The notes under the pieces were generated by a model. That model was not told where the DNA came from. It saw nothing but the letters and a program-made list of their open reading frames with translations, and did not search any database. From NCBI RefSeq assembly GCF_000378465.1, contig NZ_KB899930.1, forward strand, positions 6,165 through 70,164: 64,000 nt of DNA. Direction: 5' to 3'. This document shows positions 57,080-60,256 of the stretch, piece by piece (position 1 is the first letter of the stretch; each line of letters starts with the position of its first letter). Origin of the DNA: Elioraea tepidiphila DSM 17972. GTDB lineage: Bacteria > Pseudomonadota > Alphaproteobacteria > Acetobacterales > Acetobacteraceae. The translations under genes and the position numbers were made by a program.

Positions 57080-57904
57080 ATGACGGGACGCGACGGAGGA
57101 GCGGCGATCGGGCCGGTGGGCGAGCATTCGCCCGTCGTCATCCTCGTCCGTCCGCAGCTCGCGGAGAACATCGGCGCCGCCGCGCGCGCGATGGCGAATG
57201 GCGGCCTGTTCCACCTGCGCCTGGTTGCGCCGCGCGACGGCTGGCCGCAGGACAAGGCCTGGCGCACCGCCTCGGGGGCGGATGCGATCCTGAACGCGGC
57301 GACGCTGCACCCGACGGTCGCGCACGCGGTCGCCGATCTCCAGCGTGTGTTCGCGACCTGCCCGCGGCCGCGCCACGTGATCGTCAACACCGCGACCGCG
57401 CGCGGCGCGGCGGCGATGCTGCGCGAGATCGCCGCGCGCGGGCTCGCCGCCGGCATCCTGTTCGGGCCTGAGCGCGCGGGCCTCACCGCGGATGATCTCG
57501 CCCATGCCGATACGCTGGTGCAGATCCCGCTCAATCCGGCGTTCAACTCGATGAACCTCGCCCAGGCGGTGATGGTAATGGCCTATGAGTGGTGGACCGC
57601 CGCCGATGCCACCCCGCCCCTCCGCCTCGTCACGAACGAGACGCGCATCGCCACCAAGGAGCAGCTCGAGAACTTCCTGCGCCACCTCGTCGCCGAGCTC
57701 GATGCCTGCGGCTTCCTGCGCAACCAGGCGAAGCGGCCGAGCATGGTGCGGAACATCCGCCACCTGTTCGAGCGCGGCGAGGTGACCGAACAGGAGCTGC
57801 GCACGCTGCACGGCATCATCACCGAGCTCTCGCGCGGCCGGCGCGTGCATGGGCGGATCGAGCCGGGCATGGTCGGGCGGCAAGAGCCGGAAGGTGCAGG
57901 GTAG
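57080..57904 (+). CDS. trmJ: tRNA/rRNA 2'-O-methyltransferase, TrmJ type
   Basis: This 274-residue SPOUT (TrmH superfamily) enzyme has VILVRPQLAENIGAAARAMAN near residues 20-40, the knot motifs ILFGPERAGLT near 126-136 and IPLNPAFNSMNLAQAVMVMAYE near 149-170, and a C-terminal helical extension typical of TrmJ. TrmJ methylates nucleotide 32 of tRNAs using SAM. ATG 57080 gives the usual length. Confidence 0.9.
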   Translation: MTGRDGGAAIGPVGEHSPVVILVRPQLAENIGAAARAMANGGLFHLRLVAPRDGWPQDKAWRTASGADAILNAATLHPTVAHAVADLQRVFATCPRPRHVIVNTATARGAAAMLREIAARGLAAGILFGPERAGLTADDLAHADTLVQIPLNPAFNSMNLAQAVMVMAYEWWTAADATPPLRLVTNETRIATKEQLENFLRHLVAELDACGFLRNQAKRPSMVRNIRHLFERGEVTEQELRTLHGIITELSRGRRVHGRIEPGMVGRQEPEGAG

Positions 57905-58189
57905 AGATCTGTTGAGCCTGCGCGCTGCGTCCCAGCCTCGTACAACCGTCAACTCATCGGGATTGACCCGTCACGTATCGCCGCGGGCCTTGCGCTCTCG
58001 CTTCCCACCGCAACCATGGTCAAGGCAGCCGCGTCGTGGATCCGACTGTGCGTGGCGGCGGATCGGTCCGATGGCCGCGCTTGCTGGTCCGGATCCGACG
58101 GTGGCCCTGAGTGACCTGCCCAGCATCCTCGGCCCCCCGGGCATAGAACACCCCATCGCGCTGGCAGCGATGGTCTGAGCCGCAGGAGC
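57905..58189. other. intergenic region, lower GC, no gene seen
   Basis: About 285 bases between trmJ and the poly-G promoter. Stop codons are frequent in all frames, no ribosome site precedes a plausible start, and no hairpin stands out. Together with 58190-59190 it forms a patch less GC-biased than its flanks, consistent with inserted DNA. Confidence 0.5.
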
Positions 58190-58226
58190 TTGACGTCGCG
58201 GCGGGGGGGGGGGGGGTTATTATAGT
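58190..58226 (+). promoter_or_regulatory. promoter with a 14-G tract in the spacer (candidate phase-variable promoter)
   Basis: TTGACG (58190-58195) is a good -35. A run of 14 G (58203-58216) follows, directly abutting TTATTATAGT, which offers -10 boxes TATTAT (58218-58223) or TATAGT (58221-58226). The spacer is 22 or 25 bases, well above 17. Loss of a few G would bring it to optimum, as in poly-G spacer promoters of Neisseria. It faces the PEP-CTERM gene 42 bases downstream. Confidence 0.6.
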
Positions 58227-58267
58227 CCGAAATTGATCTGGGGTAACAACAGACAGGGGATCGGGGG

Positions 58268-58828
58268 ATGCACGTGATCCGCAGTGGCGCCTTGGCTGCG
58301 CTTCTCGTTCTTGGAGTGGTGCCGGCAGCGTCGGCGAGCCTGCTGGACCGCGCCTTCTCTGCGCAGTGGCGCGTCAGCACCCCGGTCTTAAGCTTCGCGG
58401 ATACGACGGGCTTCTCCCCGTCGGCCAGCTTCACGGTGGGCGCGGGGGCAGAGGCGATTTACACCTCACTTGCTATTGAGATCGACTTCGCCGCCACCTC
58501 GCTGACCTTGACCAATCGCTTTCTGGGCGCATCGATCGGGACGGGGGTGTTCAGGGGCTTTGACTTTACCGCCGCCGCGCCGCACGGCATCACTGGCTTC
58601 AGCATTGCCGGCGGCCCGGTCACGGGCTTCGACGTCGGCGACGTGACGATCACGCCGACCACGATCTCGGTGAACCTGGAAAGCGTGTCTCTGGGTCCGG
58701 GGAAACCGCCCATCGTGATCGATTTCACCTTCGGGGCCATCGCGGTGCCGGAGCCGGCGACGTTCGGGCTCCTGACGCTCGGCCTCATCGGGCTGGGCGC
58801 GGTGAGACGAGCCCGGCGGCGCACCTGA
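58268..58828 (+). CDS. PEP-CTERM sorting-domain exported protein
   Basis: This 186-residue protein has a signal peptide (about residues 1-23), a beta-rich Thr/Ser/Gly body, and a C-terminal VPEPATFGLLTLGLIGLG followed by a basic RRARRRT end, the PEP-CTERM tripartite tag (residues 160-186). Such proteins are cut and anchored by exosortase and secreted or linked to exopolysaccharide. No exosortase is in this window. AGGGGA seven bases upstream supports ATG 58268. GC bias is lower than in neighbours. Confidence 0.9.
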   Translation: MHVIRSGALAALLVLGVVPAASASLLDRAFSAQWRVSTPVLSFADTTGFSPSASFTVGAGAEAIYTSLAIEIDFAATSLTLTNRFLGASIGTGVFRGFDFTAAAPHGITGFSIAGGPVTGFDVGDVTITPTTISVNLESVSLGPGKPPIVIDFTFGAIAVPEPATFGLLTLGLIGLGAVRRARRRT

Positions 58829-58903
58829 TCCGCTCCTGGCAGGCTGCGGGGATTCGGCTGTCCAGGTCGGTTCGGTTCCAGGCCGGAACCTGGCCGGAAT
58901 AGC

Positions 58904-59092
58904 GCGTGCGACTTCCGCGGCGAGATGCGCCGCAACGAGACGCGAGACTCGACCACGGAACCCGATGCGCGGTTGGCACCCAAGTCGAACGGCAAGGTAT
59001 CCACGCTCGGTTGCGCCGTGACTGTGGTGATGGAGAACCGCCACCGTCTCGCAGTCGCGGCGATGGCGCCGCCGGCCACCGGCGCCGCATAG
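58904..59092 (+). pseudogene. IS5-type transposase remnant
   Basis: The frame ending at TAG 59090-59092 reads CDFRGEMRRNETRDSTTEPD, then ARLAPKSNGKVSTLG and MENRHRLAVAA, a recognisable internal segment of IS5-group DDE transposases (DFRGEKRSNxTHxSTTDPxARLxRKG ... LMENRNGL). Neither end of the gene nor terminal inverted repeats are present. Key positions are changed, so it is a decayed relic, rightward in orientation. Confidence 0.8.
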
Positions 59093-59190
59093 CGTGACAC
59101 GAGCGAGCCGGTGATGGCCCGGTGGATCATGCGCGGCGGAACACGCTTGGGGCGGACAAGAACGGACGACATGCGCGACTGCGCAGCCTG

Positions 59191-60239: not shown

Positions 60240-60256
60240 TCGCGCGGGGGGGGGGG

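Follow-up and report, generated by a model that had tools for sequence, protein, structure and literature searches.

A 14-G run between sigma-70-like hexamers upstream of an orphan PEP-CTERM gene in Elioraea tepidiphila: candidate promoter switch or incidental product of slippage

In Neisseria meningitidis, a poly-G tract in the porA promoter modulates surface expression, which is high with 11 G, two-fold reduced with 10 G and lower still with 9 G (PMC3639595). In the Neisseria fetA promoter, a poly-C tract that was fixed at 6 C became variable, with 8–14 C, in one meningococcal lineage (PMC13293289). PEP-CTERM proteins have been described in another regulatory setting, the PEP-CTERM/EpsH system with PrsK, PrsR and sigma-54 promoters (Haft 2006, PMC1569441), in which pepA is RpoN-dependent (PMC9850573). 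In gut bacteria, moreover, PEP-CTERM genes are reported to be enriched near invertible elements (PMC11892184). A preliminary description of the locus studied here knew of no described case of such a switch for PEP-CTERM genes; given the reported association with invertible elements (PMC11892184), this holds for homopolymer switches, which are not what was reported, but should be put more cautiously for phase variation as a whole. What would be new is therefore a homopolymer acting within the promoter. Literature searches on homopolymer phase variation in alphaproteobacteria returned nothing relevant.

The locus lies in a window of 64,000 nucleotides (the whole stretch of DNA that was analysed) from Elioraea tepidiphila DSM 17972, whose assignment to the alphaproteobacteria was correctly anticipated. 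The features around the G run are as follows.

58190–58195, + strand: TTGACG, a -35-like hexamer, 5/6 to TTGACA (read directly; rarity from box scans)
58203–58216, + strand: the run of 14 G, G14 (read directly, counted genome-wide)
58218–58223, + strand: TATTAT, a -10-like hexamer with a spacer of 22 (read directly, box scan)
58221–58226, + strand: TATAGT, an alternative -10-like hexamer with a spacer of 25 (read directly, box scan)
58244–58246, + strand: TAA, located between G14 and the ATG in the reading frame of the PEP-CTERM gene
58255–58259, + strand: AGGGG, a likely ribosome-binding site, with the ATG 8 nt further on (read directly)
58268–58828, + strand: PEP-CTERM protein gene, 186 aa, intact, with homologues detected only for the C-terminal motif

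Read 5' to 3', TTGACG is followed by TCGCGGC, G14, a single T (58217) and TATTATAGT (58218–58226), within which TATTAT and TATAGT overlap each other; the PEP-CTERM gene starts about 50 bp from G14. The arrangement resembles that at porA in that a poly-G run sits between -35- and -10-like hexamers (assigned by sequence only), its length would alter the spacer and the product is exported. It differs from porA, where 9–11 G are found and variation has been demonstrated, by its 14 G, its spacer of 22 and its lack of conservation in relatives. The location of the tract between TTGACG and TATTAT/TATAGT, with spacers of 22 and 25, had been described correctly, but the tract does not end at the -10 element, as one T intervenes. 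The proposed arithmetic also holds: loss of 5 G would reduce the assembled 22-bp spacer of TATTAT to 17 (8 G for TATAGT), and 16–18 bp require 4–6 G fewer. A translational (frameshift) switch operating through G14 is ruled out by the in-frame TAA at 58244 between the tract and the ATG.

Runs of the G14 class occur far above chance expectation. When the window is modelled as a first-order Markov chain, the expected number of G or C runs of at least 14 is 0.0013 for the window and 0.09 for the whole genome (4.3 Mb), in which three were observed: G14, a run of 17 C on contig C15 and a tract assembled as 16 G on contig C4 and as 12 G on contig C7 (the C4/C7 tract). G/C runs in the window have lengths of 1–6, then 11 and 14. 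The genome contains 15 distinct runs of at least 9, comprising seven of 9, two of 10, two of 11 and one each of 12, 14, 16/12 and 17; given these 15, four runs of at least 12 were seen versus 0.7 expected (P 0.006). Such a flat, heavy tail of run lengths is the pattern expected of growth by slippage.

The flanking hexamers are likewise uncommon. When both strands of 21.2 kb of the genome's intergenic sequence were scanned, the only pairs in which both elements match at least 5/6 positions at spacings of 14–30 were the two at G14, and an independent -35 and -10 so close around a 14-mer are expected at 8 × 10−5 per position. No sigma-70-like pair with a 16–18 spacer was found in 57880–58900. The scan of the 21.2 kb, on both strands, also contained no 16–18-spaced pair of the same quality, suggesting that E. 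coli-type consensus pairs are an unreliable promoter mark in this genus.

The proposed target, a PEP-CTERM protein gene, was confirmed. The product of the intact frame at 58268–58828 scores above the cut-offs of PF07589 (Pfam; 26.9 bits versus 20.7) and TIGR02595 (21.1 bits versus 16), and it combines a C-terminal PEP motif, hydrophobic stretch and basic tail with an N-terminus that, by inspection, resembles a signal peptide. About 20 PEP-CTERM genes are present in the genome, together with exosortase A (TIGR03109, 280.6 bits, contig C39). Beyond the C-terminal motif, no orthologue of the 58268–58828 gene was found in the genome_contigs collection or in 39 related genomes.

The genome resembles the PEP-CTERM/EpsH system in the PEP-CTERM motif of this product, in its exosortase A and in the promoters of most of its PEP-CTERM genes, which pair motif 1 with a -24/-12 box. 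Matches of at least 9/11 to the -24/-12 box were present in 12/18 tested PEP-CTERM upstream regions versus 13/145 for other genes of this genome (Fisher 1.2e-7), with the same pattern across the genus. In addition, the predicted PrsR site, motif 1 of Haft (PMC1569441), has TTTACA as its core, and this hexamer lies within 250 bp upstream of 12 of 15 PEP-CTERM genes. At PEP-CTERM loci of the genus (L027–L046, L144, L218 and others), TTTACA is mostly located 120–170 bp and TGGCAC-N5-TTGCW about 40–90 bp before the ATG; at several of these loci, AAC-N3-TTGA is found as well, some 25 nt ahead of the -24 box.

Unlike the genes of that system, the 58268–58828 gene carries neither promoter motif: no -24/-12 match exceeds 7/11, a background-level score reached at 215 bp, and TTTACA is absent from 57905–58267. 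It therefore falls outside the PrsR/sigma-54 regulon as defined by a -24/-12 box with an upstream TTTACA. The frequency of both elements at the other PEP-CTERM genes would have favored a sigma-54/PrsR promoter driving this gene too, with G14 irrelevant, but with both missing we regard this as very improbable and have rejected sigma-54 control. The gene at the C4/C7 tract likewise has neither the -24/-12 box nor the TTTACA motif. By motif content, then, most PEP-CTERM genes of this genome carry the known PrsR/sigma-54 promoter while these two do not, which is a new observation. Another promoter is thus needed for the 58268–58828 gene, and the sigma-70-like boxes are a reasonable candidate.

Comparison with relatives places the gene and its tract in a lineage-specific insert, the elements of which are listed here with the second G run of the window.

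57905–59190, no strand assigned: lineage-specific insert of 1.3 kb between trmJ and the 80-aa gene/rpsD (comparison with the relatives G006 and G002)
57905–58011, + strand: start of a TRAP transporter dctP gene, decayed, forming the scar on the insert's left side (HSP from the trmJ end, 75% overall)
58004–58142, + strand: ABC transporter ATPase gene remnant, N-terminal part (77% to C6:120497–120642)
60246–60256, + strand: run of 11 G, the window's second, where rpsD ends convergently (G002 and G006 lack it at this position)

The left neighbor of the insert is trmJ (57080–57904), and across 57905–58011 the HSP that covers the end of trmJ carries on into the corresponding locus of G002, an intact trmJ-dctPQM, at 75% identity overall. 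The own-genome match of the ABC-ATPase remnant, C6:120497–120642, is part of an intact ATPase gene; 60 bp separate the remnant from G14. The trmJ-rpsD interval differs by species, being empty in G006 (a direct junction), holding an intact TRAP operon in G002 and, here, the PEP-CTERM insert with transporter remnants. When the flanks were searched against the genome itself, nothing beyond the ABC ATPase remnant and some weak matches came up, and a mobile-element origin for the insert was not retained. As the G14/PEP-CTERM locus is absent from all relatives examined, its tract length is not comparable between species, and gene plus tract appear, from these alignments, as a lineage-specific arrangement known in one species only.

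A second long tract is associated with a PEP-CTERM-type gene, about 90 bp downstream of it. The start of contig C4 (L009:1–368) and the end of contig C7 (L010:3945–4308) overlap by 368 bp and are identical except for G16 on C4 versus G12 on C7. Among the 50 contig starts and 48 ends compared, this is the sole unique forward join, all other overlapping ends being repeats common to several contigs or inverted copies. The assembly apparently broke at the homopolymer. Probably the isolate's reads supported two lengths at this place, through stutter or real heterogeneity; this is the only direct sign of length instability, lies at another locus than G14 and is possibly technical. No -35/-10 boxes were present at the C4/C7 tract. 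Its orthologous place in G002 has G7, reminiscent of fetA, where a short fixed run became long and variable in one lineage; unlike fetA, for which 1,510 isolates were followed, we compare one genome per species and the tract is boxless. The gene itself matched no NCBIfam model at E 0.01 and has lost 31 bp of tail after the PEP motif that are present in G002, so that it looks decayed. With this tract, two of the four runs of at least 12 are situated upstream of PEP-CTERM genes. Taking the first as given, a second such placement among the remaining three runs has a chance probability of roughly 0.025, assuming 2500 upstream regions.

The other long G runs of the genome lie at convergent gene ends or elsewhere and have no promoter boxes. 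The run of 11 G at 60246–60256, where rpsD and the next gene converge, has no promoter role, and neither of the two nearest relatives, G002 and G006, has it; contig C24 carries G12 between convergent gene ends. At the family level, runs of at least 12 G were seen in 30 of 60 genera. None lies upstream of a PEP-CTERM gene outside this genome, among the PEP-CTERM genes listed for the 59 other genera. The porA-type arrangement thus does not recur, either at the boxless second tract or at the PEP-CTERM genes listed for those genera.

We therefore consider it somewhat probable (roughly 0.57) that G14 is a slippage-grown and probably unstable run, incidental within a possible sigma-70-type spacer and with, at most, a putative effect on expression. 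Replication slippage in this lineage would have lengthened a G run between genes, at the scar left when a small insert with an orphan PEP-CTERM gene took the place of a decayed transporter operon, and the run probably changes length in growing cells. If the boxes are a promoter, the 22-bp spacer with its 14 G should leave that promoter weak or silent; were the run to shrink to about 8–10 G, a spacer of 16–18 bp would be restored, by the same physics as at porA. Slippage, instability of G14, use of the boxes and absence of selection are all points that we infer. G14 looks like a recent, incidental product of this lineage because this genome grows long G runs at several intergenic places without promoter roles, as illustrated by the 11 G at a convergent gene end, new relative to both nearest relatives, and by the boxless C4/C7 tract, with G7 in G002 versus G12/G16 here, before a gene with a shortened tail; the lack of co-location with listed PEP-CTERM genes in other genera points the same way. 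Against this, the boxes around G14 are the best in 21 kb of intergenic DNA, which fits an accident poorly unless the promoter predated the tract, and two of the four tracts of at least 12 precede PEP-CTERM genes (about 0.025, a rough estimate). Both tract-linked PEP-CTERM genes lack a sigma-54 promoter, making a different mode of control plausible.

These last points would be accommodated by a true phase-variable promoter, in which slipped-strand changes in G number move the spacing into and out of 16–18 and switch the PEP-CTERM protein in sub-populations, the assembled state being OFF. The otherwise rare boxes closely flank G14, 8–10 G would yield the 16–18 spacer, the gene lies outside the PrsR/sigma-54 regulon, a further tract, likewise close to a PEP-CTERM gene, was assembled at two lengths, and porA (PMC3639595) and fetA (PMC13293289) provide precedents. 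Yet the assembly passes through G14 without a break and gives it a single length, only one species is known to have the gene and its tract, the other PEP-CTERM tract is boxless and precedes a decayed gene, and long G runs without a promoter occur in the same genome with no pattern in the family. We consider such a promoter unlikely, although its probability is not negligible. The preliminary proposal of a candidate switch thus stands as to tract, boxes, spacing and gene, but not as to a maintained switch, given the boxless long G runs elsewhere and the lack of recurrence at the PEP-CTERM genes listed for the family. Homopolymers longer than 10 are error-prone in short-read data, and the true run might be shorter and fixed, for example at 8–10 G, in which case the boxes would belong to an ordinary constitutive promoter whose spacer happens to be G-rich. 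That one other tract reads 12 and 16 in the same assembly agrees with this idea, but several independent runs of 9–17 were assembled here and similar runs are found in 30/60 related genera, leaving it improbable in our view. A run of 14 G can in principle form quadruplex layers, and G14 might act as a structural element, such as a G-quadruplex on the non-template strand, rather than as a spacer; nothing specific speaks against this, but with neither conservation nor partner elements it is hardly to be expected.

If a switch did operate here, the porA/fetA mechanism would reach beyond host-associated pathogens into a free-living alphaproteobacterium, and the PEP-CTERM system, mostly PrsK/PrsR and sigma-54 controlled, would gain a stochastic branch. 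It would share with the gut invertons a link of PEP-CTERM genes to a phase-variation mechanism, but through a homopolymer instead of DNA inversion, and in a different organism. The broader notion, that a subset of PEP-CTERM genes has dropped out of the sigma-54/PrsR regulon and come under hypermutable G-run control, so that a free-living, slightly thermophilic alphaproteobacterium would phase-vary an extracellular protein through spacer length, seems doubtful to us. If G14 is not a switch, it serves as a caution that GC-rich genomes of this kind acquire long intergenic G runs that have no promoter role.

Two further observations concern long runs elsewhere. Elsewhere in the genus, contig C7 of G001, whose assembly is otherwise good, carries an intergenic run of 19 G beside an N (L149:2053–2071). 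In the present genome, the run of 17 C on contig C15 and runs of 10 C on contigs C2 and C26 come after a GC hairpin; the combination of such a hairpin (GGGGGGCCGCAAGGCCCCCC or similar) with 9–17 C recurs near gene ends (L134, L142, L011, L136) and is perhaps a terminator-like repeat that gives rise to C runs.
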